Shown one piece after another: positions 1,702 to 48,315 of a DNA stretch of 64,000 bases; positions within the stretch are counted from its first letter, which is position 1, and the number at the start of each line of letters is the position of its first letter. This DNA is from Patescibacteria group bacterium. Its GTDB lineage: Bacteria > Patescibacteriota > Microgenomatia > UBA1406 > GWC2-37-13. The DNA is taken from contig JAMCST010000011.1 of assembly GCA_023380935.1 (NCBI GenBank), positions 1 to 64,000 of the forward strand, written 5' to 3'. Both the position numbers and the translations under genes were made by a program. The notes beneath the pieces are model-generated. The model was not told the DNA's origin, searched no databases, and saw only the letters and a list, made by a program, of their open reading frames with translations.

Positions 1702-2148
1702 ATGTCCATGGTATTGCAGACCTCGGCCGGCGGCATTGTCTACAAAAAACAGGCTGGGAAAGTCTTGTGGTTGATCGGTCAACACTCCCAGCATAAAGGC
1801 TGGGTATTTCCCAAGGGCCTGGTGGCCGACCAGCACCAGAATGAACGACTAGATGACGCGGCCTTGCGCGAGGTTGAGGAAGAGGGCGGCGTCAAGGCTA
1901 AAATTATTAAACTGCTGCCCAGTCCGGTATCTTACATTTACCGCTTCGAGGGCCAGCTGACCAAAAAAACCGTCTATTATTTTCTGATGGAGTACGTTTC
2001 CGGCGACCCGCAAAATCACGACTGGGAAATGAGCGAGGCTAAATTTGTCACGGAAGAAGAAGCGATGCAGACCCTAACCTACCCGTCGGACAAGCAGGCT
2101 TTTACCGCTGCACTTAAGCTCTTTACCACCCAACATGAAACGGATTAA
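1702..2148 (+). CDS. Nudix hydrolase
   Basis: A 148-residue Nudix protein expected to hydrolyse a nucleoside diphosphate linked to another group. The Nudix box is near residues 39-64: the E-x7-RE-V-x-EE-x-G-V core is intact (ERLDDAALREVEEEGGV). The spacing from the leading G to the first E is eight residues instead of five, a small insertion seen in diadenosine-polyphosphate or NDP-sugar relatives. The 3' end overlaps the next gene by 14 bases, suggesting translational coupling. The substrate is unknown. Confidence 0.85.
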   Translation: MSMVLQTSAGGIVYKKQAGKVLWLIGQHSQHKGWVFPKGLVADQHQNERLDDAALREVEEEGGVKAKIIKLLPSPVSYIYRFEGQLTKKTVYYFLMEYVSGDPQNHDWEMSEAKFVTEEEAMQTLTYPSDKQAFTAALKLFTTQHETD

Positions 2149-3943
2149 ACCCCTACTGCCATACGGTGTTTTTACTATCGTCATCGTCTGTGTATTTATC
2201 TATACTGTCTCGATCAGACAACCCTGGTTTGGACAACTGATCAGCGGCGACCAGCATAATCTGACCGGAAGCACGCTCAAGTTTGCCCGGATCTGGTACC
2301 AGGAAAAACCGTGGAATGTCGCCTTCGGGATGATCGAACAACCCCGATCAGTGGAAAACGGGTCGCTCCAGCAACGGGAACCCTATATCTCTTACCCTCC
2401 AGGCGCCGTTATCCCGATCTATCTGCTCGCCGTCCTGCTTGGTCATGAACCTACCGTAGCAATGGTGATGGGTTTTAACCTTTTTAGCCACGTAGTCACG
2501 GCTCTGCTACTTACTTACCTGGCATTTTTCCTGTTTAAGCGCGCGCTTAAAAACGCGCTCTTTTCCTATGTTTTACCCCTCATTCCCGGCCTACTGTTTC
2601 TTTTGCTACCGGGCGTGCTCTTTTGGCAACAAAATATCTACTTTGCCGATCAGGCGGTAATCCTACCGGTAGTAATCATCATGTTGATCGAGATTGTCCG
2701 CGACCAGCGCCAAAGCCAGCGGCTGACCACCATACTCAATATAGCGCAGCCGATCGTCATGGTTTATGGATCACTGACCGATTATTTTTTCCTGTTCCTA
2801 TTAATCGTGTTGTATCTTAAACGGCTACTGACTGATAAGCAAATTAAATCAGTTAAATCATTGATTACCACCACGTTGCGCTTTTGGTGGCCGGCCCTAC
2901 TGACATACGCGGCCTTTATCTTACAGGTGATCTACCTGGGCGGACTAGCCCATCTCCAGGAGAAGCTGCTTCAACGCACCGGCATGCAGATGGCGGAGAG
3001 TAACATTAGACTGCGATTTTTTGAGATATTTTGGCTGCAGCATATTTTCAACGCCTACGGCAAACAGGCATTTTGGTTGATCTGGATCTCTTTATTTAAC
3101 GTGCTTGCCTGGGCAGTCACCTACTGGGTAGGTCTGCGTAAAACCATGGAGCCAGCCAAACGTAATCAGTTTCTACGTCTATTTTTTTACGGCGCCGCTT
3201 TTGTCGTACCCCAGTTTCTCCAGATATACTGGCTGCGGGAACACTCATATATGCACGACTTTTCTTCTTTCAAATTCAGTTTGACCGTCACTATGGTGCC
3301 GTTTGTCTTTATCCCGATTCAACTATCCAGCCTCTCCCAAAAACAGAACAGTAACCGATCCTCAAGTTCAGCCGTTCGATTGTACCTGGCCGGCTTGATC
3401 ATGGTCGTTTTAGTCTTTATCCTCTACCTTTTCCGGCACGTCAACCACGAAGACCTACAACTACTGTTAAACAGCTTGTTAATTGCCTGGCCTGTGTTTA
3501 TAACGGTCTTTCTCTTGTCGGCCGATTTCCCGGTTTCCCCTTCCCTGGCGATAATCGCGGTTGGCGTCACGGTACTAATTTTGATTTACATCGCCTTTCC
3601 CCTTTACAGAAACCACTTCGGCAAAACCAGTCTTAACTACGAAGCGCTCGGCAACTCCATCCGCAAATGTACCAATTACAACGAAGTATTGATCTCGCCT
3701 GTTTATAACGCCCCTTCAAACCCGCCGCAAATGATCACCTTTACCATGAAACCGGTTCATAAAATCGACCAATTCGCGCAGATCAAGCAGTATACTGATC
3801 AAATCAAAAAACCGTACGATCTGGTGGGAATTTTCCCGGAAAAACCCCAGGGACAGTACGACGATTGGTTAAAATACAAACTGACCCAATGGTCGTGCGG
3901 AGGAAATTATTTTGTTCTCCTTGATAAACGAATCCTCCAGTAA
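2135..3943 (+). CDS. Polytopic membrane protein, divergent GT-C-like
   Basis: A 602-residue protein with about 12 hydrophobic segments and a soluble C-terminal tail. After TM1 an extracytoplasmic loop carries SGDQH (D39), then SYPPG near residue 89 before the next membrane span. An acidic residue in the first loop followed by YPP is typical of GT-C enzymes that use polyprenyl-phosphate sugars outside the membrane, but overall similarity to a named family is not evident. It overlaps the Nudix gene by 14 bases and its end overlaps the convergent gene by 37 bases. Confidence 0.7.
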   Translation: MKRIKPLLPYGVFTIVIVCVFIYTVSIRQPWFGQLISGDQHNLTGSTLKFARIWYQEKPWNVAFGMIEQPRSVENGSLQQREPYISYPPGAVIPIYLLAVLLGHEPTVAMVMGFNLFSHVVTALLLTYLAFFLFKRALKNALFSYVLPLIPGLLFLLLPGVLFWQQNIYFADQAVILPVVIIMLIEIVRDQRQSQRLTTILNIAQPIVMVYGSLTDYFFLFLLIVLYLKRLLTDKQIKSVKSLITTTLRFWWPALLTYAAFILQVIYLGGLAHLQEKLLQRTGMQMAESNIRLRFFEIFWLQHIFNAYGKQAFWLIWISLFNVLAWAVTYWVGLRKTMEPAKRNQFLRLFFYGAAFVVPQFLQIYWLREHSYMHDFSSFKFSLTVTMVPFVFIPIQLSSLSQKQNSNRSSSSAVRLYLAGLIMVVLVFILYLFRHVNHEDLQLLLNSLLIAWPVFITVFLLSADFPVSPSLAIIAVGVTVLILIYIAFPLYRNHFGKTSLNYEALGNSIRKCTNYNEVLISPVYNAPSNPPQMITFTMKPVHKIDQFAQIKQYTDQIKKPYDLVGIFPEKPQGQYDDWLKYKLTQWSCGGNYFVLLDKRILQ

Positions 3944-5467: not shown

Positions 5468-5473
5468 ATTCTC

Positions 5474-8681: not shown

Positions 8682-9461
8682 CTACTTTAAAAAGAGCAAT
8701 AATATTATAGCAAGTGCGATCCGATAAATCCCGAAGGGAATCAGGGTGTTCTTTTGGAGAAACCCGATAAACCACTTCATGACGAAATATGCCACCACAA
8801 ACGCCGCCAGCGTTCCGATCAGCAACAATGACAACGACTGGCCCGAATGCATTAACAGACCGCGCATTTTGAACAGGTCATATCCCGAAGCGGCCAATAT
8901 CGTGGGGACAGCCAGGAGAAAGGAATAACGCGCCGCTTCGTCGCGCCGATAGCCCAATCCCATCATTCCCACCATGACAATCCCCGAGCGCGACACGCCC
9001 GGCACCACAGCCAGCGCCTGGACTAACCCGATCAAAGCCGCCTGGCGGTCGGACATCTGGTCAAGCTGACGGTTAAGCCGCTTTGTCTGTTTTTTCAGCT
9101 TCAGTTCCAAGACGATAAACACGCCGCCGACGATCAACAGCGCCATGATAATTAGCAGGTTCGAGTTGAAAAAAACCGTCTTGATAATTTTGTATAGCAA
9201 AAAACCGATAACGGCGGTCGGAACAAAGGAAAACGCCAGCTGTCTTATTAAATAGAGATGGCGACGCAGATACTGGGCGTAGAGAAAAACCACCGCCAAA
9301 ATGGCTCCAGCCTGGATAAACACCTCGAAAAAACTCTGAAACGCGGTTTGGGCAAGACCCAGCAAATGACCGGTGATGATGAGATGGGCAGTTGAGGAAA
9401 CCGGCAAGAATTCGGTTAATCCTTCAACCACTCCGAGGACAAGGGCATGCAATATCGTCAT
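8682..9461 (-). CDS. uppP: Undecaprenyl-diphosphatase UppP (BacA)
   Basis: 259 residues with about eight membrane helices. It dephosphorylates undecaprenyl diphosphate on the outer face to recycle the lipid carrier for peptidoglycan and surface glycans. Both family signatures are intact: EGLTEFLPVSSTAHL (residues 13-27, with the two catalytic Glu and the Ser/His) and PGVSRSG near residue 155. The size is typical. It diverges from the GT4 gene at 9483 with only 21 bases between start codons, fitting a shared role in carrier-linked glycan synthesis. Confidence 0.95.
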   Translation of the reverse strand: MTILHALVLGVVEGLTEFLPVSSTAHLIITGHLLGLAQTAFQSFFEVFIQAGAILAVVFLYAQYLRRHLYLIRQLAFSFVPTAVIGFLLYKIIKTVFFNSNLLIIMALLIVGGVFIVLELKLKKQTKRLNRQLDQMSDRQAALIGLVQALAVVPGVSRSGIVMVGMMGLGYRRDEAARYSFLLAVPTILAASGYDLFKMRGLLMHSGQSLSLLLIGTLAAFVVAYFVMKWFIGFLQKNTLIPFGIYRIALAIILLLFLK

Positions 9462-9482: not shown

Positions 9483-10622
9483 ATGAAAATTGCCATTGTT
9501 CATGATCAGCTGCAGGAGTTTGGAGGCGCAGAACGGGTGTTGGTGGCGTTGAAGCGGATCTTCCCCAAGGCCGACGTCTTTACTTCGTTTTACAACCCTA
9601 AGGCATTGGGAATCCACGCGGAAAAATTCCGCAATTGGAACATCGTTACCTCCTGGGCCGATAAGGTACCGTTGTTGAAGCGGCTTTACTCGCCGCTGCG
9701 CTTCATTACCCCGCAGATCTGGGAAGGATTTGATTTTGGAAAATATCAGTTGGTGATTTCCTCATCCGGCTCATACATGAGCAAGGGCGTCGTCACCAAG
9801 CCGCCGACCAAACACGTGTGTTATCTCCACCACCCGCCCCGCTATCTTTATTATTACGAAACGGCCATCGAGTGGCAAAAATACTGGCCGGTCAAGGTCT
9901 ACGGCCACCTGATCAACCACCACTTACGGCTTTACGATTACCTGTCTTCCCAACGCGTCGACCAGTTTATCGCCAACTCTAAAGAGACGCAAAAAAGAAT
10001 TGCTAAATTCTACCGGCGCGACTCCACCGTCATCTATCCCCCGGTCAGTCTTCCGGAACCCCAACCCGCTAACCCGCCAACTCTCGAACTCTCAAACTCG
10101 TTAACTCGTCAACCCGTTAACTATTATTTGACCGTCTCCCGCCTGGCCCGCGCCAAACACGTTGACGTTTTGATTGACGCCGCCAACCAACGCCGATTCC
10201 AACTCAAGGTAGTCGGCAGCGGCCGGGACGCCGGCCGGCTGCGCTCGCTGGCCGGTCCGACCGTGGAAGTGCTTGAGCACGTCGACGATCAAGCACTAGC
10301 TCAGTTGTACCGTAACGCCCGCGCCTATCTGTTTGCCGCGGTGGACGAAGAATTTGGCATCGCGCCGGTCGAAGCGATGGGTTATGGTTTACCGGTGATC
10401 GCCTACGCCTCTGGTGGTTTAAAAGAGACGGTTACCAACGGCAAAAACGGCTATCTTTATCATCGACTGAGCCCGGAGTCTCTGGTTGCGGCCTTGACAA
10501 CCTTGGATAAACTGTCAGACGGCGAATATCAACAGATGCGCCGCGCCAGCCGCCAAGCAGCGGAAAAGTACACCGAAACCGCCTTCAAACAAAACATCCT
10601 CCGGTTTGTAGCCGGTGTTTAA
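9483..10622 (+). CDS. Glycosyltransferase family 4
   Basis: 379-residue GT-B enzyme. The N-terminal domain begins MKIAIVHDQLQEFGGAERV. The C-terminal domain has the sugar-nucleotide binding EEFGIAPVEAMGYG (E-x7-E) and SGGLKETV. The CYLHHPPRY motif and overall layout resemble WbaZ-type mannosyltransferases. The linker between the two Rossmann domains (about residues 194-213) is encoded by an 8-bp tandem repeat. The 3' end overlaps the convergent Nudix gene by 38 bases. Confidence 0.9.
   Translation: MKIAIVHDQLQEFGGAERVLVALKRIFPKADVFTSFYNPKALGIHAEKFRNWNIVTSWADKVPLLKRLYSPLRFITPQIWEGFDFGKYQLVISSSGSYMSKGVVTKPPTKHVCYLHHPPRYLYYYETAIEWQKYWPVKVYGHLINHHLRLYDYLSSQRVDQFIANSKETQKRIAKFYRRDSTVIYPPVSLPEPQPANPPTLELSNSLTRQPVNYYLTVSRLARAKHVDVLIDAANQRRFQLKVVGSGRDAGRLRSLAGPTVEVLEHVDDQALAQLYRNARAYLFAAVDEEFGIAPVEAMGYGLPVIAYASGGLKETVTNGKNGYLYHRLSPESLVAALTTLDKLSDGEYQQMRRASRQAAEKYTETAFKQNILRFVAGV
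10063..10118 (+). repeat. Seven-unit 8-bp tandem repeat inside the GT4 gene
   Basis: Consecutive octamers are AACCCGCT, AACCCGCC, AACTCTCG, AACTCTCA, AACTCGTT, AACTCGTC and AACCCGTT, followed by AACTATTA. Seven units make 56 bp; the reading frame stays open because the array falls in the flexible interdomain linker. Confidence 0.75.
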
Positions 10623-14951: not shown

Positions 14952-16100
14952 CTAAATAAACGGCTGCCATTCGCCGATCGGCATGATATTAAAAGTTAGG
15001 AAATTCCAACCGTAAAAATATATTGCCGGTAATATGATCAGCGCTGCCAGGACAAATTTTTTGGAACCGATAAAACGGGAAAACGCCACACAGGCCAACG
15101 GCCAAAGCGGAAGGCTGTATCGGGAAATATCCCGGTGTTGAACAAATGTCGTCGCAATAAAGTATATCAAAAAAAAGTAGAACCAGCTCCGATGTGACGT
15201 CTGACTCAAGGAAAACAACGCCAATATATAGGCAAAAAAAATAAAGACAACGTCCTCCAACCAGGCGGTGCCCACCCAGGGCTGGCCGGCATTAAACACG
15301 GCAAACGGATAAGCCAGGTGGATGTTGTTGCCGGAGTGGAAATAGGCCAAAAAGTCGCCGTAGCGGAAATAGTATAACCCAAACACGGCCAACAATCCAA
15401 CCGGAATGAGTAGAATGCCAAGCCTGTTAACCGTTAGGATTTTTTCCTGACGATTTTTCACCAACGCTTCGATAAACACCAACAGATAGGCGCCAAACAG
15501 CAGCACCCCCGGCGACTTGGTCATCGTCGCCAACGCGCCGAACCCGCCGGCTAACCAATACTGTTTTCTTTCAAAGAAAAACAAAGACAACAACACGGTT
15601 AACAGAAACAGGCTCTCCGGCGCGCCGACCGACCGCACGATCAAAAACCGCGGCAGCATGAGAAAAACCGCCGTCAACCAGACCGGCCGGTTGGTAACGC
15701 GAAAGTATTTAAGGAAGTAATAAAAAAACCCTGCGAGGATTACGGTAAAGACCAAATTAACCAAAACCATTGATTTCAGATAACCGAAAACATAGGAGAA
15801 CAACCGGATAAATACCGGATAAAGCGGCAGATGGGCGGCGTAATAAGTCGGTGCCAAAGACACGTCTACCCGCAGTGTCTTGATGATGGTCGGATCGTAG
15901 AACGACTTGGCGGGGATGATGTACAACGGCCCGTCATAATGTTTGTAGATATAAAGGAAGTTGCTGTCGGGAATCGTCAACCCAAACCAGTGGGAAAACC
16001 GCAACAGAAACGGCAGCCAGAGCACCATGGTGGATACCAAAACCACCGCGGTTAGGGTAAAATATGGTATGAAGCGTTTGCATCGGATTTTTTCCAGCAT
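14952..16100 (-). CDS. PIG-V-like membrane mannosyltransferase
   Basis: 382 residues with roughly ten helices. The first outside loop has KHYDGPLY (H54, D56, G57), followed by HLPLYPVFIRL; this pair (YDG...PLYP) is the pattern of GPI mannosyltransferase II (PIG-V) relatives and their bacterial homologues. It would use a polyprenyl-phosphate sugar. Its ATG lies 32 bases inside the divergent gene at 16069, an unusual head-to-head overlap. A TACAAT box 7 bases upstream supports this start. Confidence 0.75.
   Translation of the reverse strand: MLEKIRCKRFIPYFTLTAVVLVSTMVLWLPFLLRFSHWFGLTIPDSNFLYIYKHYDGPLYIIPAKSFYDPTIIKTLRVDVSLAPTYYAAHLPLYPVFIRLFSYVFGYLKSMVLVNLVFTVILAGFFYYFLKYFRVTNRPVWLTAVFLMLPRFLIVRSVGAPESLFLLTVLLSLFFFERKQYWLAGGFGALATMTKSPGVLLFGAYLLVFIEALVKNRQEKILTVNRLGILLIPVGLLAVFGLYYFRYGDFLAYFHSGNNIHLAYPFAVFNAGQPWVGTAWLEDVVFIFFAYILALFSLSQTSHRSWFYFFLIYFIATTFVQHRDISRYSLPLWPLACVAFSRFIGSKKFVLAALIILPAIYFYGWNFLTFNIMPIGEWQPFI
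16058..16063 (+). promoter_or_regulatory. -10 box for the gene at 16069
   Basis: TAAAAT lies 5 bases before the ATG at 16069 and inside the coding region of the divergent PIG-V-like gene. This predicts a leaderless transcript. Confidence 0.45.
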
Positions 16101-29556: not shown

Positions 29557-29562
29557 AACCAT

Positions 29563-29568: not shown

Positions 29569-29590
29569 TCAGGTTAAATTGCGTCTCACC

Positions 29591-38258: not shown

Positions 38259-39068
38259 GATCTGGCGATAATTACGGTCGTGTATCAAAATTACATTATA
38301 CTCGATGATTTTTTCAAAAGTTTGGCCGCCCAGACCGACACTCGCTTCACCCTGTTTATCGTAGATGTTTCGACGGAAAAACAGCCAATCAAACCACCGC
38401 CAGAACTCAATGTTACGGTTATCCCTGCCCCCAACCGCGGCTATGCCCATAGTGTTAATCTTGGTCTAAAACAAGCCCGCAACCACTTTTCCCAGTTCTG
38501 CGTGATTAACCCCGACACCGTCTTAAGCCAAAACTTCGTCGCCAAGGTTAAAACCAGCCTTAGCGCTCATCCCGGGGCAATTATCGGCGGCAAAATTTAC
38601 TATGCGATCGGTTACGAATATCACCGTGACCGCTATCGTCCGGCCGATCAAGGCAAAGTCATCTGGTATGCCGGCGGCACAATTGACTGGAACCACGCCC
38701 TGACGCCGCACCGGGGCGTGGATACGGTTGACCGGGGACAGTTTGACCGTTTTGAACCGACCGGGTTTGTTAATGGCTGCTTGATGTGTCTTGACCAAAG
38801 CGTCATTAATACGGTCGGATACTGGGACGAGAGCTATTTCCTGTATTTTGAAGACTCTGACTACTGTGAACGGGCCAAGCGTAAAGGAGTTAAGTTATAC
38901 TATGACCCGGCGATCGTCATCTGGCATAAAAACTCCCAGTCCACCGGCGGCTCCGGGTCGACCATTCATCAAAAATACCAAGCAAGAAATCGGTTGATTT
39001 TCGCCCTGAAATACGCACCGCTGAAAACCAAACTGCATCTGATCAGAAACCTGATTTGGCACCGGTAA
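38250..39068 (+). CDS. GT2, rhamnosyltransferase-like
   Basis: 272 residues. AIITVVYQNYIILDDFFKSL, IVDVSTEK, NRGYAHSVNLGLKQA, INPDTVLS and the acceptor/base region YFEDSDYCERAKRKG give a complete GT2 of the WcaA/rhamnosyltransferase type; VDVST replaces the usual VDNxS. The protein is soluble and would extend a lipid-linked glycan inside the cell. The ATG at 38250 is supported by the TATAAT 7 bases upstream. It is a monocistronic gene, 5 bases from the convergent stop at 39074. Confidence 0.87.
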   Translation: MSHDLAIITVVYQNYIILDDFFKSLAAQTDTRFTLFIVDVSTEKQPIKPPPELNVTVIPAPNRGYAHSVNLGLKQARNHFSQFCVINPDTVLSQNFVAKVKTSLSAHPGAIIGGKIYYAIGYEYHRDRYRPADQGKVIWYAGGTIDWNHALTPHRGVDTVDRGQFDRFEPTGFVNGCLMCLDQSVINTVGYWDESYFLYFEDSDYCERAKRKGVKLYYDPAIVIWHKNSQSTGGSGSTIHQKYQARNRLIFALKYAPLKTKLHLIRNLIWHR

Positions 39069-39073: not shown

Positions 39074-40981
39074 TTAACCGCGATAACCGTAAACCGTGAT
39101 CTGGCCGGGAACGGAGAAAATGGGAAAAATCTCGTCAAAACTCACCCGTTCTCCGTGCGGCAGAATGAGGGTACCGCGAAGAATGTCGCCGTCCTGAAAC
39201 GCATCCTCCTTACACGCCTTGCCGTAACACAAAATAAAGGTTAAGCCGTAATCGCGGCTGACTAACCGGTGGTCCTGTTTAAGCAGATAGTCCAGTCCGG
39301 CCTGGTCAACCGAGACGGGAAACACTCTTAGCCGCACCGCGTTGGTCTTTAAAAACGCTTTGTGGTTCTGTCGCTTGTTATATTCCCAAATCTGTTTGTG
39401 TTGACTGATGGCGTCGGCGATCCCCTTTTGGTAAGTAAGCGCCGAAATGGGATAAGGTTGGGAAAAATAGTAAATCGGTCCGGTGAGACAAACCAGCAAC
39501 ACGATTAAAAAAGCCGTCGCGGTGCGGTTGGTATGGTTTTCTCCGGTAATAATTGATGGCTTTTTCCTGCCAAGAATAATTACCAACCACTGGATAACGA
39601 TCACCGCCGCAACGATTAGCACGGTGACCGGGGAGAACTGACGCGTAACCGCTAATAACGGCGCCAGACCGGTCAAAAGCAACGCCAGCATCACCCGCGG
39701 ATAAAAACCAAAAACGGGCAGAAACAACAGCGAGATAATACCGGCGACAAACAAAACCGGCACCAGATTTACACTCAGGGTCAGGTTACCCAACATTAAC
39801 GTTCCGATTTCTTTTCCGGTCAAAGAAAAAGTATTATGGAGCAGGTAAAAATGGGTCAAAAAAGCAAAAATCGCCACTAACGAATATACGATCAGTCGTG
39901 ACGCGAGCGACGACCGGCGCTTCCAAAAAAAACGGACAAATAAAACCGCGGCATTAACCACAAAAAAACCGTAGAGCAGTGAATTTTTTAAGACAAACTG
40001 TCTTGTTTCTTCCAGCACTCCGTACTTAATGAAAAGTCCGGAAGACAACAATAATCCGACAAAAAACAGATTAAACCAATTCAGGTCGCTGCCCAGAATC
40101 GGCAGCAGGACAAAAACGTTCAGAAAATACCACGGTTGAATTTCGCGCGTCAACGACAGATAAAGCATCAGGAACATAAAACCGGTGAAGATAAGCTGTT
40201 TAACGCGGCGACCGCCGGTGAAGAATAAAAAAGGCAGAGTGATGAATTTTATTCCCGCGGACAGCAGCAGCATCAGTCTCCCCCACCACTGTTTGCCGTC
40301 CAGCACCAAACTCATCCCAGCGATCGCCAACCCGACGCCGATCAGGTCGTTGTGGGCTCCGAGCAAACCTTCCACCAACACCAAAGGATGGACGGCAAAG
40401 ATCATCGCCCAGCGGCGGTTACGCCGACTCAGACAATAGACGGCCAACCAATAAAAAATAACGGACAGGAGCTTGAACAGATAAAAATTAAGAACGAACT
40501 TTCCCATCGCCAGAAACGAAGGGATCAGCGTTATGCCTAAAAAAACCGGACCATAGGGGTAGGTCCGGTGGGTCCAGTGCATAAACCTTAACCACGGATC
40601 GGTCTTGAAATACTCGGGAACGTAAAAATAGGGATTTTGATGGTAATGGGTAATGATCTTGGCGTCAAAAATGTAGTTGAACAAATCATGAGATAAAGCG
40701 GGATAGGAAAACAACAATATCGCGCCAACCACCAAGCTCAAAAGGAAAGGGTTGATGGTCTTGATGCGTCTTAAAAACAAGTAGTAAAACATAAACAACC
40801 CGACGACGATGCCGATATAAAGATAGAGATTGATCTGCCGGTGATAATAACCCAACGGAATAATCCATTGGCGAAACGCCTCCCAGTAGCGATGGTTGAA
40901 CAGGGTAAGGTTAACGTCGATCAGGGAGTATGACCAAACCGAGATCGCGATCAAAAAGATTGAGTAGAAAACAATCAGCAT
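39074..40981 (-). CDS. GT-C membrane glycosyltransferase, MptB/GT87-like
   Basis: 635 residues, 13 or so helices, and a C-terminal soluble domain. SHDLFNYIFDAKIITHYHQN with PY, HWTHRTYPYGPVFL and HPLVLVEGLLGAHND resemble the polyprenyl-phosphate-mannose-dependent alpha-mannosyltransferase (MptB/DUF2029) group of actinobacteria and CPR relatives. The ATG at 40981 is chosen over an upstream TTG that overlaps the preceding gene. Last gene of a three-gene minus operon. Confidence 0.8.
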   Translation of the reverse strand: MLIVFYSIFLIAISVWSYSLIDVNLTLFNHRYWEAFRQWIIPLGYYHRQINLYLYIGIVVGLFMFYYLFLRRIKTINPFLLSLVVGAILLFSYPALSHDLFNYIFDAKIITHYHQNPYFYVPEYFKTDPWLRFMHWTHRTYPYGPVFLGITLIPSFLAMGKFVLNFYLFKLLSVIFYWLAVYCLSRRNRRWAMIFAVHPLVLVEGLLGAHNDLIGVGLAIAGMSLVLDGKQWWGRLMLLLSAGIKFITLPFLFFTGGRRVKQLIFTGFMFLMLYLSLTREIQPWYFLNVFVLLPILGSDLNWFNLFFVGLLLSSGLFIKYGVLEETRQFVLKNSLLYGFFVVNAAVLFVRFFWKRRSSLASRLIVYSLVAIFAFLTHFYLLHNTFSLTGKEIGTLMLGNLTLSVNLVPVLFVAGIISLLFLPVFGFYPRVMLALLLTGLAPLLAVTRQFSPVTVLIVAAVIVIQWLVIILGRKKPSIITGENHTNRTATAFLIVLLVCLTGPIYYFSQPYPISALTYQKGIADAISQHKQIWEYNKRQNHKAFLKTNAVRLRVFPVSVDQAGLDYLLKQDHRLVSRDYGLTFILCYGKACKEDAFQDGDILRGTLILPHGERVSFDEIFPIFSVPGQITVYGYRG

Positions 40982-40985
40982 ACGG

Positions 40986-42440
40986 TTACGGACGACTAAC
41001 AATTGAGAAAGAGTTGTTTTTTTCCAGAACTTTATAGGGAATGCTGTTTACCTTTAGCCCGTCTATTGCCCAGTTGCGGGTAATGGCGACGAAGTTTTTT
41101 TCATCGGAACGGAACAACCTCAGCAAAGTGCGCTTCTCGTCGGGCATCTCGATCAACGGCTTGATGCTGGCACCGGAATAAAACACGGCGATCGGAAGAA
41201 AATCGTCGTCGAGGTAATGCGTCTGGGGATAGGCGGCGATTTTTTCGGAGATCGCCACGTCGTCGGGAACATATCTGGTCGTCGGGATGACCTCGGGATA
41301 GAAGATTTTAATCTGAAGCAGTGCTACCGCACCGAACAATAAAAGATAAAGGGATTGGAAAACGGTCTCACGGAAAAATCGACGCAATCCGGCCGGAACC
41401 AGTTTTTTGGCCAACCGAAAACACACTCCTCCCAAACGGTAGACACCGCCCGCCCCAATCAGAACCAACGGAAGATAAACCGGAATCAGATGCCAGATTT
41501 GACTTTTGTCGGTCGTTAGGAAAGGATAAAACACCAACAGATTCCACAGTAAGACGGTGGCGACCGGCTTTTGCAGAAACGCCAGCGACACCAGTAAAAA
41601 ACCGCCGCCCAATAGCCAAAAATAATACCACTTTCTTATTCCCATGTGCAGATAGAACAACGGCAGCTGCGGATGCAACTGAAAATAGGTCAATAAACTG
41701 CTGCGTTGGCGCAAACCGACATTAAAAAAGTGTTGCTCAATAAACAACGGGTACTCGCTTGCCTGGAGATGATACCAGGGATAAACCACGGCCAAAAAAC
41801 CCACCACTCCCAAAGCTAACCAGATGGCATTTTTCAGCTTAGCCAACTGACGCAGGTTGATAAAAACAATCAACGGTAAAGCCGACAGTCCCACCAGCGT
41901 TTTACTCATCATTAAACCACCAAAAGCGACTCCGACCGCCGGAAACAAAGCAAACCGGTCGGCCGACTTCAACGCCAGATATATGGTTAATATATAGAAA
42001 AAAACCAAAATGGCGTCCAGGTTACCCGACCTCACTCTTATCAGATACCAGACCGACGTTCCAAGCATCAGGGCGGCCACAAAGGCAATGGTTTTTTTTT
42101 TGAACAGCTGGAGTCCGGTCAGATAGGTTAATGCGATCGAACCGAGACTAAGCAGCGCCGAAGGCAACCGGGTGGCAAATTCGCTGAAGCCGAAAACTTT
42201 GTACGACAACGCCATCAACCAGAAACCCAACGGCGGATGATCGTAGAACGGTTGGCCGTTCCACATCATGTTCATGTAGTCGCCGGTTTTCACCATGGTG
42301 CGCGCGATCGCACCGTACCACGCCTCGTCCCAACTGGATAAGGTGGGATAGCCTAGCCGGTAAAAGAAAAAAAAGGCGAAGATTGCTATCAATACAAACA
42401 ACGGTAAAGCCGTGAGGAAAATTTTCTGCTTGGTTTTCAT
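40986..42440 (-). CDS. GT39/ArnT-like membrane glycosyltransferase
   Basis: 484 residues. SSWDEAWYGAIARTM includes D38-E39, then NGQPFYDHPPLGFWLMALSY and TRLPSALLSL. These are canonical PMT_2 motifs, second only to the 19531 protein. A soluble tail of about 90 residues. Its ATG shares one base with the upstream stop, so the operon is translationally coupled. Confidence 0.9.
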   Translation of the reverse strand: MKTKQKIFLTALPLFVLIAIFAFFFFYRLGYPTLSSWDEAWYGAIARTMVKTGDYMNMMWNGQPFYDHPPLGFWLMALSYKVFGFSEFATRLPSALLSLGSIALTYLTGLQLFKKKTIAFVAALMLGTSVWYLIRVRSGNLDAILVFFYILTIYLALKSADRFALFPAVGVAFGGLMMSKTLVGLSALPLIVFINLRQLAKLKNAIWLALGVVGFLAVVYPWYHLQASEYPLFIEQHFFNVGLRQRSSLLTYFQLHPQLPLFYLHMGIRKWYYFWLLGGGFLLVSLAFLQKPVATVLLWNLLVFYPFLTTDKSQIWHLIPVYLPLVLIGAGGVYRLGGVCFRLAKKLVPAGLRRFFRETVFQSLYLLLFGAVALLQIKIFYPEVIPTTRYVPDDVAISEKIAAYPQTHYLDDDFLPIAVFYSGASIKPLIEMPDEKRTLLRLFRSDEKNFVAITRNWAIDGLKVNSIPYKVLEKNNSFSIVSRP

Positions 42441-44023
42441 CAGCGGAAAATTAACGTATGGATTAGATTCTCGTCTGATGGGGTATTGAGATCGGCACCG
42501 GACAGGCGGTATTTTTCGATCCTAAACCCAGTGGAATAGTGCCATACGGCCACCGGTAAGCCGGCGATCTTTACTTTTGCCGCTTTCCACCAGTCGTCGC
42601 TAATGGTTGGGTTATGGCTGGGAGAAATTAAAAGATAAGTCACTGGTTTTTTTTGGTAGGGAAAGGCTTGATTGTCGCCAAACTGCTGTTGGGTATAGTT
42701 CATGGCATAACGATTGGAGTACCCGAACTGGTCGTCGGTGAAGATGTAGTAACCGAACTCGGCCGGGGCATCACGAAAAATCCGCTGGGCAGCCGCCTGG
42801 TTAAATCGCCAGGATCCCCCGTCACCGCCGAAGTAACTCACCGGTTTAAAATAAACAAAAAAGTCGTGGCGCAGTCCGACAAAAACCACGATGGCAAAAA
42901 CCAGCAGGAACAGCGGCTTATAGACGAACTCGTAGTTCATGGCGAAAATCAGCGCCACCAGACCCAAAAACGGCCAGTAATAATAACCCCACATCATCCC
43001 CCGGTAAAGCACGGTCGTTGCCCAGTAGCCGAAATAAAAATACAACAGCAGTAATACGAATATCCGACGTTTCCCGGGATCTTTGGCGCGCCACAACCGC
43101 CATAGCCCGGCGGCCAGACACACCGCAAAAATACCCAGCAACCATCGGTTGTCTTTGGTGACAAACCCGACCCCGTCGGTGTAAGTAGAACGGATTCTTG
43201 ATTGAACGATGTCGCTGAATTTTTTGTCCACTTTACCGCTGTTTTCCTTACCGGTCAGGTAATTGATCACCGAGTGCGTCTGCAGAAATTGGTGTTTCAG
43301 ATCGAAAAGAATAAAAGTTGAAAGGGGGATGAGAATGATTAAAACTGAAAAAAGATGGATGAACTTTCTATTTTTCAATATTGCCAGTATCAACACCGGT
43401 AATGATAAAATCAATACCGGGACCGCAAACGCCATCTGGAACTGGATCATCATCCCCAGCAAGAAAACCGCCAAAAGGAGGTGTTTGTTCTTCTGACCAA
43501 CCAGGTACCGCCAAAGATAATAGACGTAAAGCGGAGCGAGAATCACCGCTCCAACCGGGTTGAAGAAACTGGAAACGGAGAAACAGAGGGCAACGCCGGT
43601 AAGGGCACCCGCCAAACAACCCACCTCTTCAGAAAAAACCCGTTTTCCCACGTAATACGCGACGGCGCAGGCAACCATAAACAGCACCACCCAAAACCAG
43701 CCGACCACGGCCGGATTGCCGCCGCCGATAATAAAGGCCGGAAGGTTAAGATAGGTCCAGGCCGGACCATGGAAAACGCCGGGGATTCCGCCGGAGCGCG
43801 GTCCGATCAGGGAGATCGGTTTATTCTTCACCACGTCCTCCATGAGCAAAAAATCGCGGGCGATATCGGTGTGGAAGATAATATCGCCATGAATGGCAAA
43901 CCAGGCGGCGAAAAATAAACTGGCGCCAAATGCCGCCAGCGCCGCGACTTTGACACTCACTGCCAACCACCCGGGTGATCGTGGTTTTGCCTTTTTCTGA
44001 CCGGGGTAAGGGGATGGTTTCAT
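42440..44023 (-). CDS. GT-C membrane glycosyltransferase, SDQGRD subfamily
   Basis: 527 residues with a basic, proline-rich N-terminus. The first loop has HTDIARDFLLMEDVV (D53, D57), then GVFHGPAWTYLNLP. It is a paralogue of the 16069 gene. About eleven helices and a soluble C-terminal domain of about 110 residues. A CATAGT box 8 bases before the ATG may be its promoter. It leads the operon 44023-39074 and diverges from the GT2 gene at 44051. Confidence 0.82.
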   Translation of the reverse strand: MKPSPYPGQKKAKPRSPGWLAVSVKVAALAAFGASLFFAAWFAIHGDIIFHTDIARDFLLMEDVVKNKPISLIGPRSGGIPGVFHGPAWTYLNLPAFIIGGGNPAVVGWFWVVLFMVACAVAYYVGKRVFSEEVGCLAGALTGVALCFSVSSFFNPVGAVILAPLYVYYLWRYLVGQKNKHLLLAVFLLGMMIQFQMAFAVPVLILSLPVLILAILKNRKFIHLFSVLIILIPLSTFILFDLKHQFLQTHSVINYLTGKENSGKVDKKFSDIVQSRIRSTYTDGVGFVTKDNRWLLGIFAVCLAAGLWRLWRAKDPGKRRIFVLLLLYFYFGYWATTVLYRGMMWGYYYWPFLGLVALIFAMNYEFVYKPLFLLVFAIVVFVGLRHDFFVYFKPVSYFGGDGGSWRFNQAAAQRIFRDAPAEFGYYIFTDDQFGYSNRYAMNYTQQQFGDNQAFPYQKKPVTYLLISPSHNPTISDDWWKAAKVKIAGLPVAVWHYSTGFRIEKYRLSGADLNTPSDENLIHTLIFR

Positions 44024-44050: not shown

Positions 44051-44815
44051 ATGGAAAAAGCAATTTCCGTCCTTACCTTTAGCCGCAATGAGGAAAAGAA
44101 TATCACAAAATGCATTGAGTCGGCCAAATTGCTTTCTTCTACCGTTATTGTCGTTGACATGGAAAGTCAAGACCGCACCGTGGCCCTGGCCAAATCCCAA
44201 GGCGCTACGGTTTACCCCTTCCCTAACGCCGCCTACGTGGAGCCGGCGCGCAATTTTGGCGTGGCTCAGGCAAATACCGAGTGGATATTCATTCTGGACG
44301 CTGACGAAAGAATCACGCCGGAGTTGGCCGACGAAATCAAAAGGAAAATTACCACGTCGCAGTTTAGCTACTACTACGTTCCCCGGAAGAATATTTTTGC
44401 CGGGAAAAAATGGCTGAAGCATGGCGGCTGGTGGCCGGACCGTCAACCGAGACTAATCAAACGTAACTGCCTGGTTACTTGGCCAAAAGCCATCCATTCA
44501 TCACCGATTATCAGAGGAGACGCCGGACAACTGAATCAACCGCTACTCCATTACTTTCACGGCCAACTCTTGAATATGGTCGAAAAGACCGCCACTTTCG
44601 AAGACATCGAGTCCAACCTGTTGCTCCGGGCGCGCAAGCAGGTCGGTGTTCTGACTTTTTTCCGGAAATTTTGGGGGGAACTACTGCGTCGTCTGATCAT
44701 TAAGTTCGGATTTTTGGACGGGAGCATCGGCGTCTTGGAAAGCGTTTATCAGGCTTTTTCAAAAACCTTTACCTATCTGTTTCTCTATGAGAAAACCAAC
44801 CGCCGCACTCTATAA
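44051..44815 (+). CDS. GT2, WaaE-like
   Basis: 254 residues. ISVLTFSRNEEKNITKCIES, VIVVDMESQDRT, FILDADERITPEL and RKNIFAGKKWLKHGGWWPD are intact motifs of WaaE/KdtX-type GT2 enzymes. A hydrophobic C-terminal stretch may touch the membrane. Paralogue of 31018 with a complete nucleotide-binding motif. First gene of a four-gene operon (44051-48315); its end overlaps the next gene by 29 bases. Confidence 0.88.
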   Translation: MEKAISVLTFSRNEEKNITKCIESAKLLSSTVIVVDMESQDRTVALAKSQGATVYPFPNAAYVEPARNFGVAQANTEWIFILDADERITPELADEIKRKITTSQFSYYYVPRKNIFAGKKWLKHGGWWPDRQPRLIKRNCLVTWPKAIHSSPIIRGDAGQLNQPLLHYFHGQLLNMVEKTATFEDIESNLLLRARKQVGVLTFFRKFWGELLRRLIIKFGFLDGSIGVLESVYQAFSKTFTYLFLYEKTNRRTL

Positions 44816-45872
44816 CCCGTTTCTTGACACGCTGGGGGGTGGAGAAAAACACATTCTCTCCGTCCTTAAAGTACTGGAGGAATTCGGGTATCAGATAACC
44901 ATCTTCTGGAATGACAATCTGGAAAAACAGATCAAGGACAAGTTCTCTCTTAGTTTCCAGGCGCCTCTGCGGTTTGCGCCGAATCTGTTTCACCGCCCCA
45001 GCCAACTCAAAAGATTGATTACCTTAAGGCAGTTCGACATGCTGTTCTACGTTACCGACGGCAGCTATTTTTTTTCCACCGCCAAGCAAAACTATATTTT
45101 CTGCATGGTGCCGCAACAAAACCTGTACCAACGCACCATCATCAACCGACTGAAAATGGCCAATTTCAACTTCATCAGCAACTCGCGTTTCACCCAGAGT
45201 TGGCTGCAACACTGGCACATTCCCAGTCAAGTCATCTATCCATATTTAGCATCGGAGTTCATTGATCTTGATCTTGGCCGGGTTAAAAAAGACAATATTA
45301 TTTTGTCGGTCGGTCGTTTTTTCAATCAACTTCACGCAAAACAGCACGCTAAAATTATTGATGCGTTCAATAAACTTAAACTAAGAGATACGTCGTACAA
45401 AAAATTTACTCTAATATTGGCTGGCGGATTTAAAAACGAAGATATTCAATACGTTAAAGAACTGAGCCAGTTGACCCAAGGGCGCAGTGATGTTCGTCTG
45501 GTCCTTAACCCCGATTTTCCCACCCTGTTTGACTGGTATAAACGCGCCCGGTATTATTGGCACTTTACCGGGTACGGAGTCGACGTAAACACCACTCCCC
45601 AGGCCGCCGAACATCTGGGGATTACTCCGTTGGAGGCGATGGCCGCCGGTTGCATTACGTTTTGCCATGACGCCGGTGGCCCACGAGAGATTGTTGAATC
45701 AGGAAAAAACGGTTTTTTGTTCAGTCAAGTCGATCAATTAATCGAGCAGATGCAAACAATAACCGATCCTCAACTTATACAACAACAGGCCAAGGCCCGG
45801 GTCACGTCCCGGTTCTGCTATCCGGTCTTTAAAAATCGGGTCAAAGAAGTACTTAGTTTATCCCAAAAATAA
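44787..45872 (+). CDS. Glycosyltransferase family 4, ALG11-like
   Basis: 361 residues, GT-B fold. The start is ALYNPFLDTLGGGEKHIL (glycine-rich loop). The C-terminal domain has NIILSVGRFF, a basic loop KQHAK and GITPLEAMAAG with AGGPREIV. The FDWYKRARYYWHFTGYG stretch and GITPLEAMA resemble ALG11-type mannosyltransferases. It works on the inner face on a lipid-linked oligosaccharide. Confidence 0.88.
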   Translation: MRKPTAALYNPFLDTLGGGEKHILSVLKVLEEFGYQITIFWNDNLEKQIKDKFSLSFQAPLRFAPNLFHRPSQLKRLITLRQFDMLFYVTDGSYFFSTAKQNYIFCMVPQQNLYQRTIINRLKMANFNFISNSRFTQSWLQHWHIPSQVIYPYLASEFIDLDLGRVKKDNIILSVGRFFNQLHAKQHAKIIDAFNKLKLRDTSYKKFTLILAGGFKNEDIQYVKELSQLTQGRSDVRLVLNPDFPTLFDWYKRARYYWHFTGYGVDVNTTPQAAEHLGITPLEAMAAGCITFCHDAGGPREIVESGKNGFLFSQVDQLIEQMQTITDPQLIQQQAKARVTSRFCYPVFKNRVKEVLSLSQK

Positions 45873-45881: not shown

Positions 45882-46718
45882 ATGATATCAGTCGTCATTC
45901 CCACTTACAAAAACCGTCAAGTTTTTTTGACTAATCTGCGTCAGAATTTGCGCTGGCTTGAACACGAAGAGATCGTCGTGGTTAACGACGACCCCGACGC
46001 CGATTTAACTAACGCGATGCAACCATACCCCAACCTTAGACTGCTGCAAAACCCGGTGAACCTCGGCTTTGGTCCCAGCGTTAATCGCGGCGTCAAACTG
46101 GCCACTCAACCTGTCTTATTTCTTCTTAACGACGACGTCATGTTAACTGGTACTGGTTTTCTTGACGCCGTGAAATATTTCCGACGCGATCGGCATCTGT
46201 TTGCGGTCGGCTTTGCCCAACAAGAAAAGGACGGTCGCCTGGTGGGGAAAAACCGGTTGTTTTGGCAACGGGGACTGTTCCACCACCGCGCCGCCACTGA
46301 TCTGGAGTTCGGAGATACGGCCTGGGCCGAAGGCGGTTGCTGCCTGGTAGACAAAAGGAAATTTGTGCAACTGCACGGCTTTGACCCGATCTATGCGCCG
46401 TTCTACTGGGAGGATATCGATTTGTGTTACCGGGCCAAACTAAAACAATGGAAGGTTTTGTTTGACCCGCAGTACGTGACCGTTCATCATCACGAATCCA
46501 CCATCGGCACTCATTACCGACGGCGTGACATCGAAACCGTGGCGTTTCGCAATCAGTTAATTTTCACCTGGAAAAATATCCGAACCGCCACCGGCTGGAT
46601 CGAACATCTCGTCTACCTACCGTACAATCTGTTATATTACCCGATAAAGGGAAGCTGGCCTTTTGTTATCGGACTGATTCAGGCGATCGTTAAAATATTA
46701 TTTGCCAATGAAAAATAA
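45882..46718 (+). CDS. GT2, rhamnosyltransferase-like
   Basis: 278 residues. ISVVIPTYKNRQVF, EIVVVNDDPDAD, NPVNLGFGPSVNRGVK, FLLNDDVML and YWEDIDLCYRAKLKQWK are the GT2 motifs; the base is ED in WEDIDL. A C-terminal amphipathic/hydrophobic region suggests membrane docking. It sits between a GT4 and a GT-C gene and its end overlaps the latter by 11 bases. Confidence 0.87.
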   Translation: MISVVIPTYKNRQVFLTNLRQNLRWLEHEEIVVVNDDPDADLTNAMQPYPNLRLLQNPVNLGFGPSVNRGVKLATQPVLFLLNDDVMLTGTGFLDAVKYFRRDRHLFAVGFAQQEKDGRLVGKNRLFWQRGLFHHRAATDLEFGDTAWAEGGCCLVDKRKFVQLHGFDPIYAPFYWEDIDLCYRAKLKQWKVLFDPQYVTVHHHESTIGTHYRRRDIETVAFRNQLIFTWKNIRTATGWIEHLVYLPYNLLYYPIKGSWPFVIGLIQAIVKILFANEK

Positions 46719-48315
46719 AACCCGTTATTTGCTGTTCGCCGCCATTTTGGTGAGTTTGTTTTTGAACCTTTTCCGTTTCGGGCAGGTACCGCCCTGTCTC
46801 AACGCCGACGAGGCCGCCTTCGCCTATAACGCCTACTCGATCGCCAAAACCGGCAAAGACGAATTCGGCCGATTTCTGCCTCTCCGTTTCGAGTCGTTTC
46901 AGGACTATAAACTACCGCTGTTTGTCTATGCGTCGGTACCGTTTGTGGAGCTGCTGGGTTTAAACGAACTGTCTACTCGCCTCCCCAACGTCGTCATCTC
47001 ACTCTTTTTTGTACCGCTGGTCTATCTGATTACCAAGAAACTGTTCAGAAACCAGACCGTTGCCCTGCTGACCGCCTGGTTGGCGGCGTTGACTCCATGG
47101 ACCTACATTCTTTCCCGCCACGCTCACGAAGGGGTAATCGGAGCGGTATTTATGCTCGTGGCCGTTTATTACCTGATCGACCTGCATCGCTCGATCAGCG
47201 TCAAATCCTTGATCATCAGCAACGCCTGCGTCGTACTGGCGGCCAATTCGTATCATTCTTACCGGATGTTCGTTTTTTTCTGGGTAGGTTGGGAAATTTT
47301 ATTGCTTCTGACCAAAACCGCGAAGACCAATTTTAAACTCCGCTGGTTCTGGTTGGTGGTGGTGCTGACCTTGGCGATTCCGATCGCCATTGACGCCTCA
47401 TCGAGCTTAAACCGGGTCAGTAACCTATTTTTCACGCAAAACCCGGGCATTCACCTGCGCCTGCAGGAGTACTTAACCGAACACAATCTACCGATTCTCC
47501 ATAATATTTATACCCAGGGCATCCGCGACGTGACTGACCGCTACTTTGAACAGATCTCCCCGGGGTTCTTTTTGATCTGGGGTGATAAAAACTGGCGGTT
47601 CGGCTACCAATACCTGGGACTGATTACGCCGGTAGAATATCTTTTCATTTTTGTCGGTCTTTACTACTTATTTAAAGAGAAACACCCCCAACGGTATCTC
47701 CTGTTGCTCCTCCTAGCGGCGTCGCCCATCCCCAATGCCCTCACTTGGCAGGACGCCTCGCTGATCCGCGTTTATTTCATGATTTTTCCTTTACTAATCA
47801 TTGTCGGCTTTGGTCTTTACCGGTTTCTTCTGACCGTTAAGCGGCCGCTGCGGCCGGTAGTCTTCGTCGCTCTTGCCTTAATCTACGGCTTCTATCTAAT
47901 CAATAGCTGGGATGTTTACTTTTTTCATTATCCGAAACGCATCGAAGTCATCCGCGCCTGGCAGTGCGGATACAAAGAGTTGGGAGACTACGTAAAGCAA
48001 AACTATAACAAATACGACCGGTTCGTCATCACCGATCGTCTTGGTCAACCTTATATTTTCCTGTTGTATTATCTTCAGTACGATCCGGCCAAATACCAAA
48101 AACAGGCGACCATGACCATACCGGACGGTTATGGGTTTGGCCAGGTCGAGGGATTTGACAAGTTCAGTTTTAAGTTCAGGTTTGACCCGCAGGCGAGAAA
48201 AACCGTGTTTGTCGGCTACCCGGAGGAGTTCAAGGGCCTGAGGATCGACCCGGCAAAAATCAAAAAAATCCAGATCCGCTCCGAAGAGATATTTTGGATC
48301 TACGCGGTAAACTAA
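46708..48315 (+). CDS. GT39-family membrane glycosyltransferase, SIAQTGRDE subfamily
   Basis: 535 residues. ADEAAFAYNAYSIAKTGKDE includes D34-E35, then FGRFLPL and DYKLPLFVYASVPF. Third member of the subfamily at 23640 and 33245. The ATG at 46708 is chosen over an in-frame TTG two codons earlier. The C-terminal 130 residues are soluble. Its stop is 6 bases from the convergent CPBP stop. Confidence 0.87.
   Translation: MKNKTRYLLFAAILVSLFLNLFRFGQVPPCLNADEAAFAYNAYSIAKTGKDEFGRFLPLRFESFQDYKLPLFVYASVPFVELLGLNELSTRLPNVVISLFFVPLVYLITKKLFRNQTVALLTAWLAALTPWTYILSRHAHEGVIGAVFMLVAVYYLIDLHRSISVKSLIISNACVVLAANSYHSYRMFVFFWVGWEILLLLTKTAKTNFKLRWFWLVVVLTLAIPIAIDASSSLNRVSNLFFTQNPGIHLRLQEYLTEHNLPILHNIYTQGIRDVTDRYFEQISPGFFLIWGDKNWRFGYQYLGLITPVEYLFIFVGLYYLFKEKHPQRYLLLLLLAASPIPNALTWQDASLIRVYFMIFPLLIIVGFGLYRFLLTVKRPLRPVVFVALALIYGFYLINSWDVYFFHYPKRIEVIRAWQCGYKELGDYVKQNYNKYDRFVITDRLGQPYIFLLYYLQYDPAKYQKQATMTIPDGYGFGQVEGFDKFSFKFRFDPQARKTVFVGYPEEFKGLRIDPAKIKKIQIRSEEIFWIYAVN

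Follow-up and report, generated by a model that had tools for sequence, protein, structure and literature searches.

A conserved locus rich in predicted GT-C glycosyltransferases in a relative of Candidatus Roizmanbacteria and its probable role in extracytoplasmic glycan assembly

The first 64,000 nucleotides of contig JAMCST010000011.1 from a Patescibacteria group bacterium (this whole stretch is hereafter the window) were analysed for a dense group of genes encoding polytopic membrane proteins that resemble glycosyltransferases of the GT-C fold. Taken jointly with the mechanism set out below, the segment at 8682-48315 is probably the Roizmanbacteria version of a surface-glycan locus conserved in the class. 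Its likely function, judged from the encoded proteins, is that of an assembly line outside the cytoplasm, whose GT-C enzymes would extend a lipid-linked glycan with polyprenyl-phosphate sugars, most likely one sugar after another at the outer membrane face. The host appears to be a tiny uncultured bacterium closely related to Ca. Roizmanbacteria. The window sigma factor (rpoD) was at most 86% identical to that of named Ca. Roizmanbacteria, and the 31 best of the 80 sigma loci returned (L002-L032, 79-86% identity) were Roizmanbacteria, Microgenomates or Patescibacteria/bacterium records; the loci after L032 were mostly from Clostridia, with identities of up to 64%.

The conserved locus was bounded by UppP on the left and by a CAAX-protease gene and rpoD on the right, and the GT-C genes covered 80% of 14952-48315. 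The genes are listed below and named by their first coordinate. Assignments are predictions from sequence or modelled fold; acidic residues lie in the first loop, and fractions of ten refer to ten relatives fetched for comparison.

8682..9461, minus strand: UppP/BacA undecaprenyl-diphosphate phosphatase, forming the left border, where 10/10 relatives also have a BLAST homologue
9483..10622, plus strand: GT4 adjoining UppP; NCBIfam GT4-type, under cut-offs; 10/10 relatives, mean identity 61%
14952..16100, minus strand: GT-C, like glycosylphosphatidylinositol (GPI) mannosyltransferase 1, core; profile match 23gf_B, E 6e-6; 10/10 relatives, moved in G384
16069..17535, plus strand: GT-C, PMT_2, core; D45/D49; 10/10 relatives
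17525..18289, plus strand: GT2, DPMS/ALG5/ArnC/GtrB-like polyprenyl-phosphate-sugar synthase, core; PDB 5mlz, E 7.8e-17; 10/10 relatives
18286..19521, plus strand: GT-C, PMT_2, core; D33-E34; 9/10 relatives
19531..20967, plus strand: GT-C, PMT_2, intermediate frequency; D37-E38; 6/10 relatives
20964..22139, plus strand: GT-C, PMT_2, intermediate frequency; D68-E69; 5/10 relatives
22132..23643, plus strand: GT-C, PMT_2, core and in most of the class; D46-E47; 10/10 relatives
23640..25355, plus strand: GT-C, PMT_2, accessory, paralogue of 46708; WDEA; its own separate cluster
25352..26548, plus strand: GT-C by predicted fold, ALG12-like, accessory; E36; 13/72 family genomes, own included
26535..27917, plus strand (also numbered 26472, as below): GT-C, accessory; 37% identical to 31929
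27784..29562, minus strand: GT-C, PF10131 type; frequent and, in the majority of class loci, close to 22132
29579..31021, plus strand: Wzx/MOP flippase, core; PF13440, E 4e-44; 10/10 relatives
31018..31932, plus strand: GT2 in which no hydrophobic segment was found; 8/10 relatives
31929..33248, plus strand: GT-C, GT87-like, accessory; D29; 3/10 relatives
33245..34873, plus strand: GT-C, weakly PMT/ArnT-like, accessory; E32/D34; 4/10 relatives
34855..36543, minus strand: GT-C, accessory, paralogue of 36540 (49% identity)
36540..38258, minus strand: GT-C by predicted fold, STT3/PMT/ArnT-like, accessory; D53; 5/10 relatives
38250..39068, plus strand: GT2, rhamnosyltransferase-like (NCBIfam, under cut-off), core; 10/10 relatives
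39074..41002, minus strand: GT-C, MptB-like (NCBIfam, E 2e-8, under cut-off), core; 9/10 relatives
40986..42440, minus strand: GT-C, PMT_2 (78 bits), accessory; D38-E39; 4/10 relatives
42440..44023, minus strand: GT-C, PMT_2, accessory; D53/D57, E62-D63; 1/10 relatives
44051..44815, plus strand: GT2, core; 10/10 relatives
44787..45872, plus strand: GT4, core; 10/10 relatives
45882..46718, plus strand: GT2, core; 10/10 relatives
46708..48315, plus strand: GT-C, PMT_2, core, right edge of the locus; D34-E35; 10/10 relatives
48322..49011, minus strand: CPBP/Rce1-like membrane protease (CAAX), right border; PF02517 and synteny
2135..3943, plus strand: protein with 12 transmembrane segments, possible GT-C, outside the conserved locus; without family match

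A preliminary description of the window had counted 19 polytopic proteins of GT-C layout. All 19 open reading frames (ORFs) were present, with 7-15 hydrophobic segments each in a Kyte-Doolittle scan, and an artefact of overlapping frames was rejected because the orthologues align over most of the ORF length. The GT-C assignment (GT-C_A type) was upheld by sequence profiles, paralogy or structure prediction for 18 of them (two by predicted fold, the 16 others by profile or paralogy), while it is unproven for 2135. In Pfam searches with the window proteins, nine of the 19 matched PMT_2, six above the cut-off and three just below it; the same nine were all above the cut-off in the genome-wide search. 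Protein 27784 exceeded the cut-off of PF10131, the family found in 11 of the 13 members of its alignment (PMT_2 in 5), 31929 matched GT87 just below the cut-off, and 33245 gave a weak PMT match as well as a BLAST match to 23640 (E 5e-13). At E<=0.01 Pfam assigned no family to 2135, 14952, 26472, 34855, 36540 or 39074, and a weak DUF6541 match was the sole result for 25352. The profile of 14952 matched GPI mannosyltransferase 1 in the PDB. Against the NCBIfam model of MptB (NF038066), 39074 reached 33.1 bits, below the curated cut-off of 40, and GT87 matched four of the 15 members of its alignment, the window protein not among them. The protein carries approximately 270 extra C-terminal residues that include further helices, most relatives having about 360-400 residues; the copy in L007, broken off by the end of the locus, has at least 537. 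NCBIfam at E<=0.1 returned nothing for 2135, 25352, 26472, 27784, 31929, 34855 and 36540, and profiles of 39074, 27784, 31929/26472 and 36540/34855 found nothing among PDB sequences at the same threshold.

A comparison with known GT-C structures, suggested in the preliminary description, was carried out on AlphaFold models of 36540 and 25352, and both models matched GT-C enzymes in the PDB. For 36540 (predicted local distance difference test, pLDDT, 81; predicted template modelling score, pTM, 0.86), a match was thus found by fold after the profile search had given none. Its 23 best Foldseek rows were all GT-C enzymes (E 6e-7 to 2e-3), among them STT3/oligosaccharyltransferase (OST) chains, AglB, PglB, DPY19, AftA, AftD and ArnT, with template modelling scores (TM-scores) of 0.41-0.52 over the query. 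Alignment with VIA-align gave a Z score of 17.7 to Pmt4 (341 residues, 4.2 Å), with OST chains tied, and scores of 12-15 to the AftA, AftB, AftD and Emb chains; values below about 13 may arise by chance for helical bundles, and the best rows of both models were higher. In the case of 25352 (pLDDT 76, pTM 0.76), ALG12 was the single Foldseek row at E<=0.001 (6.4e-5), followed by PglB (1.1e-3) and ArnT (1e-2); an unrelated structure (a GPR3 complex) did not appear before rank 7. The structural alignment reached Z 16.7 to ALG12 (340 residues, 4.1 Å); the 41 best rows were GT-C enzymes or chains of GPI transamidase, subunit U of which has a GT-C fold, and 25 of the 41 had Z scores of at least 13. 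The GT-C proteins are putative users of polyprenyl-phosphate (or -diphosphate) sugar donors.

The same matches raise the possibility of a protein glycosylation locus, in which the GT-C set includes enzymes for protein O- or N-glycosylation, with S-layer or pilin proteins as substrates and a separate acceptor for each enzyme, instead of forming a single line for a single glycan. The best Foldseek matches of 36540 were STT3, AglB and PglB, several members matched the protein O-mannosyltransferase families PMT_2 and PMT, and many different GT-C proteins occur in each locus. However, likeness of fold cannot tell protein transferases from glycolipid transferases, and the Pmt4 and STT3 rows of 36540 were tied. 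This protein was also accessory (5/10 relatives), which is not expected of a general oligosaccharyltransferase, and no gene for a dedicated acceptor was recognised among those of the locus, where no systematic search for one was made. We regard this explanation as unlikely.

Conservation of acidic residues in the first loop (between transmembrane segments 1 and 2) was examined in alignments of 14 proteins with 3-29 homologues each. An invariant aspartate or glutamate was found in this loop in 13 of the 14 proteins, and in the fourteenth, 14952, D56 was kept in 10 of the 11 rows; a loss of the first-loop acids in most proteins, named in the preliminary description as evidence that would count against its GT-C reading, was thus not seen. 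Invariant acids made up 35 of the 880 residues in loop 1 versus 21 of 2236 in all remaining loops, an odds ratio of 4.4 (P = 8e-8, Fisher test). Loop 1 was more conserved overall (306/880 invariant residues versus 448/2236), so the excess of acids is partly due to its general conservation; among invariant residues, acids still accounted for 35/306 (11%) in loop 1 compared to 21/448 (5%) elsewhere. In four unrelated membrane proteins used as controls, the counts were 0, 0 and 0 for first loops of 21-31 residues, and 4 for MacB, the first loop of which has 233 residues. The preliminary description had reported an acidic pair in most of the proteins. The conservation of first-loop acids stood, but an adjacent pair was present in only about eight of the 19: the alignments gave one for 18286, 19531, 20964, 22132, 40986, 42440 (E62-D63) and 46708, and that of 23640 was read by comparison with 46708. 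The remaining proteins had single or spaced acids, such as E32 and D34 of 33245. The acids of 25352, 2135 and 23640 were taken from smaller comparisons and those of 26472 and 34855 via their paralogues.

The search of related genomes, limited to ten relatives with long contigs and with UppP and rpoD on one contig, recovered the locus in all ten. An island unique to this genome or recently acquired was therefore rejected, and the preliminary notion of an isolated island gave way to a locus conserved in the Roizmanbacteria examined, the core of which also occurs in further families of the class. The shared order was UppP - GT4 - ... - 14952 - 16069 - 17525 - ... - 22132 - ... - Wzx - ... - 44051 - 44787 - 45882 - 46708, with losses and one move of 14952 (G384). 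Nine of the ten stretches ran on to the CAAX gene and rpoD; that of G383 (L094, L095) ended before them, and both were visible in L024 from the same genome. Downstream of the sigma gene, the CAAX-protease gene and a 46708 homologue were found in 27 of the 29 rpoD loci with DNA there. On the left side, a UppP (PF02673) match was present somewhere in 13 of the 14 genomes searched and absent from one, and in ten genomes it lay on the rpoD contig at the matching place, about 26-40 kilobases (kb) from rpoD. The conserved edge block of L019 was located on that side of rpoD where PrfB lies, and FtsE instead followed rpoD in L009; both may be local inversions or moves around the locus.

The interior of the locus varied much more than its ends. 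Strict orthologues, defined by at least 34% identity over more than half of the length, occurred in 10/10 relatives for 14952, 16069, 22132 and 46708, in 9/10 for 18286 and 39074, in 6/10 for 19531, in 5/10 for 20964, 27784 and 36540, in 4/10 for 33245 and 40986, in 3/10 for 31929, in 1/10 for 42440 and in 0/10 for 23640, 25352, 26472 and 34855. Each gene of a relative was assigned to the best-scoring window protein, and 26472 and 34855 were read as absent partly because the corresponding genes went to their paralogues, 31929 and 36540. Each of the 11 loci encoded 9-18 membrane proteins of GT-C size, defined by at least six hydrophobic segments, at least 300 residues and a best match other than Wzx, UppP, MacB or CAAX. 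They formed 36 clusters, six of which were present in 9-11 loci and 18 in one or two; the clustered set holds nine proteins that match no window protein and may include non-GT-C proteins, and clustering at 35% identity can split orthologues, the 27784-type proteins being spread over several clusters. To judge from these comparisons, the turnover pattern is that of a capsule or O-antigen locus, with the variation here in the GT-C genes.

The distribution of 22132 was used to follow the core beyond the family. A match at E<=1e-20 was obtained in 109 of the 137 genomes of the class, own included; identities were 45-53% in the 11 other genomes from its own family or order and 24-43% elsewhere. Twelve of these loci were hand-picked for long contigs and good scores, and positions were counted in ORFs of at least 120 amino acids that had a match or were polytopic. 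A 17525-like GT2 (41-49% identical) lay within two such ORFs of 22132 in 9/12 loci, a 39074-like GT-C adjoined 22132 in 9/12, and a 27784-like GT-C was found within three ORFs in 11/12. The core order of an ALG5/DPMS-like GT2, an MptB-like GT-C, 22132 and a PF10131-type GT-C thus appears to extend to other families of the class. Because distant relatives share it, this order suggests an old machinery for the assembly of surface sugars, parts of which are exchangeable. Six of the twelve 20-kb stretches contained Wzx, and in all six a second donor-type GT2 (24-32% identical to 17525) stood beside it; the copy compared with the PDB, from L142, had ArnC as its best match (E 1.6e-18), with chondroitin synthase, GtrB and DPMS next in that order. 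PMT_2 was present in 96/96 genomes, with 21 matches in the host genome and 4-33 in each of the 95 relatives. First-look counts of PMT_2 candidates had a median of 27 (4-42) in all 23 genomes of the same class besides the own versus 6 (up to 26) in other classes; the latter was taken from 230 of 262 genomes, with 31 genomes lacking a match and one genome with a count left out, so that zeros are under-represented.

The remaining glycosyltransferases of the preliminary description, six GT2 (922, 17525, 31018, 38250, 44051, 45882) and two GT4 (9483, 44787), were confirmed by sequence, as were the flippase at 29579 and UppP at 8682. Pfam covered five of the GT2, one GT4 and the flippase, and NCBIfam covered 922 and 9483; UppP was called from homologues in relatives that match PF02673. 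The proposal that 17525 makes polyprenyl-phosphate sugars was borne out in that its best PDB match was a dolichol-phosphate mannose synthase (DPMS; 5mlz, E 7.8e-17), followed by ArnC (3e-8) and GtrB (1e-5), although other GT2 enzymes, e.g., chondroitin synthase, matched as well. Its homologues in the 10/10 relatives were 61-72% identical (mean 66%). Genome-wide, there were 19 PF00535 matches. A DPMS-GtrA-type fusion of 372 residues was encoded on contig C4, and two further donor-type GT2 on C9 and C14 were judged by eye from their motifs. The flippase matched the MOP-flippase and O-glycosylation Wzx models of NCBIfam, under their cut-offs. The earlier statement that no polymerase or ligase is obvious held for the window, where none of the 19 proteins matched Wzy_C at E<=0.01 (the Pfam Wzy_C model, other Wzy families being outside its reach), but not for the genome, which encodes three Wzy_C proteins and one PF02397 phosphoglycosyltransferase elsewhere.

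From the observed genes, families, two predicted folds, conserved acids, synteny and turnover, we infer a scheme that includes membrane sidedness and topology, donors, order of steps, acceptor and product. The PF02397 phosphoglycosyltransferase would start the glycan on undecaprenyl phosphate, and the cytoplasmic GT2 and GT4 enzymes (31018, 38250, 44051, 44787, 45882 and 9483) would make a short oligosaccharide. The Wzx-type protein 29579 would then flip this oligosaccharide, or the donor lipids. Polyprenyl-phosphate sugars would be produced by 17525 and the three similar-looking GT2 encoded elsewhere in the genome, and the GT-C enzymes at the outer face would draw on them for elongation and branching of the glycan. 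The core GT-C set (14952, 16069, 18286, 22132, 39074, 46708 and usually a 27784-type protein) may account for a shared part of the glycan, and the accessory GT-C genes, gained and lost, for a strain-specific part. Final transfer to the acceptor could be performed by one of the GT-C enzymes or by a Wzy_C/WaaL-type protein encoded elsewhere, and UppP would recycle the lipid carrier. The suggestion of a surface glycan built largely outside the membrane is thus supported as the probable course of assembly; that every GT-C contributes a single sugar, as the preliminary description proposed, may also hold.

Several observations weigh against this scheme. The donor synthase was not near 22132 in three of the 12 chosen class loci (L131, L137 and L139), and in L139 homologues of 17525, 39074 and 27784 were all absent from its vicinity. 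In Roizmanbacteria, 39074 lies apart from 22132, unlike elsewhere. Some other classes of the phylum carry large PMT_2 sets too, with first-look counts reaching 26. One donor synthase was recognised at 8682-48315 for 18 GT-C proteins, with the PDB comparison covering 17525 among the GT2; therefore, either few sugar types would be reused, or donors would come from other loci. A single GtrA-type domain was found in the genome, which bears on how donors cross the membrane. Folds were predicted for two of the 19 proteins, with modest TM-scores (0.4-0.5) to solved GT-C structures, and 2135, outside the locus, is unproven as a GT-C, its case resting on topology and one shared acid. Finally, the 940-kb host genome is 85% complete.

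Four kinds of known system come closest to the locus. In eukaryotic lipid-linked oligosaccharide assembly, several GT-C enzymes in turn use few dolichyl-phosphate donors. Among the ALG3/9/12/6/8/10 and GPI mannosyltransferases, 25352 resembles ALG12 and 14952 resembles GPI mannosyltransferase 1; unlike that pathway, the locus is bacterial, has more GT-C genes and is variable in gene set. Mycobacterial arabinogalactan and lipomannan (MptA/B, Emb, Aft) are extracytoplasmic polymers built by several GT-C enzymes; 39074 is MptB-like and 36540 aligns with AftA, AftB, AftD and Emb chains, whereas the present locus is compact and contains Wzx. Capsule and O-antigen (Wzx/Wzy) loci likewise occupy a fixed chromosomal site with conserved ends, a variable interior, Wzx and a nearby UppP, but here the interior variation lies in GT-C genes and no Wzy_C match was found in the locus. 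The three-component periplasmic glycosylation systems, with GT136 and GtrABS as prototypes (PMC11127046), use lipid-phosphate sugars outside the membrane and have components of the same three kinds, provided that the Wzx-type flippase here carries such sugars. As presented there, they have one GT-C per donor synthase, in contrast to 9-18 GT-C-sized proteins in these loci and, here, 18 GT-C proteins with one recognised synthase, and unlike them the locus contains a conserved cytoplasmic glycosyltransferase block. The locus would work like the three-component, endoplasmic reticulum (ER) and mycobacterial systems, yet it fits none of them as a member.

This likeness underlies an alternative in which three-component sets of donor synthase, flippase and GT-C attach side chains to a preformed polymer, of the cell wall or a glycolipid, that is synthesised elsewhere. 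The same three components serve Citrobacter O-antigen pentofuranosylation, for which a MATE-family flippase has been proposed to carry the donor (PMC11127046), and the second donor-type GT2 beside Wzx in 6/6 class stretches with Wzx, ArnC-like in L142, fits such sets. The ratio of 18 GT-C proteins to one recognised donor synthase in the locus does not, and, to judge from its conserved GT2/GT4 block, the locus may well make a backbone too; decoration of a preformed polymer is accordingly rated improbable. Least likely of all is a conventional Wzx/Wzy locus that adds sugars mostly in the cytoplasm, with polymerases, ligases or acyl-modifying enzymes, in place of polyprenyl-phosphate-sugar transferases, making up most of its polytopic proteins, as Wzx with six further GT2/GT4 in the locus, the Wzx-model matches of the flippase (under cut-offs) and the Wzy_C proteins and PF02397 initiator of the genome would allow, but against which stand 0/19 Wzy_C matches at E<=0.01, the position of all three Wzy_C genes outside the window, the PMT_2, GT87, PF10131 and MptB matches, two predicted folds of the ArnT/PMT/STT3/ALG12 type and the likeness of 17525 to a donor synthase.

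With extracytoplasmic assembly as the favoured reading, a wider and more tentative proposal may be made: Microgenomates-type Patescibacteria possibly share an ancient, vertically kept glycan assembly line of donor synthases, flippase and core GT-C in conserved order, with exchangeable GT-C cassettes. The surface glycan would then receive most of its sugars outside the membrane, as happens in the lumen of the ER, with the accessory GT-C genes acting as a serotype-like locus for host attachment and phage escape. The locus would probably also be a target for phages and for contact with the host. Its conserved gene set (donor synthase, flippase, core GT-C) makes the building of the patescibacterial surface testable in a laboratory host, and the locus provides a large natural collection of related GT-C enzymes for enzymology. 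Genomes of the Candidate Phyla Radiation encode several to many glycosyltransferases, according to three reports (PMC8080830, PMC5220378, PMC12153355). Among the titles and abstract openings listed by full-text searches of PubMed Central articles under open licence, none gave an account of the locus or of a GT-C expansion in the class, which counts as weak evidence of novelty.

Twelve further PMT_2 matches lay outside the window, two of them under the cut-off and six in a second glycan locus on contig C9. At C9:62765-65083 (L103), a 773-residue open frame fused a GT2 domain to a PMT_2-type GT-C and adjoined two shorter paralogues of the GT-C part; judged by eye, its neighbourhood appears to include sugar-nucleotide genes, a Wzx-like protein and a MurJ-like protein. 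At C14:50369-53040 (L126), a GT2 judged DPMS-like by eye was located next to a GT-C-like protein of 654 residues with 11 transmembrane segments, and the two may work as a donor/transferase pair that stands alone.

The left side of the window holds seven tRNA genes, at 380-651 and 6586-8634. The five at 6586-8634, together with other genes labelled by eye as encoding a short-chain dehydrogenase/reductase, a phosphatase, MutM, MacB, an ATP-binding cassette protein and HlyD, separate 2135 from the locus. A single island of 19 GT-C genes was rejected, as 2135 is set apart by these tRNA genes and its homologue was found in 1/10 relatives' loci, as two ORF pieces. No Pfam or NCBIfam family matched 2135. 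Four of the 72 family genomes, its own among them, gave matches, two of which were weak, and one full-length relative with 31-32% identity retained D41 and the YPPG stretch. In the variable part of the G376 locus (L089), homologues of 2135 and of the membrane protein at 3907-4836 stood side by side, and these two genes may travel as a pair.

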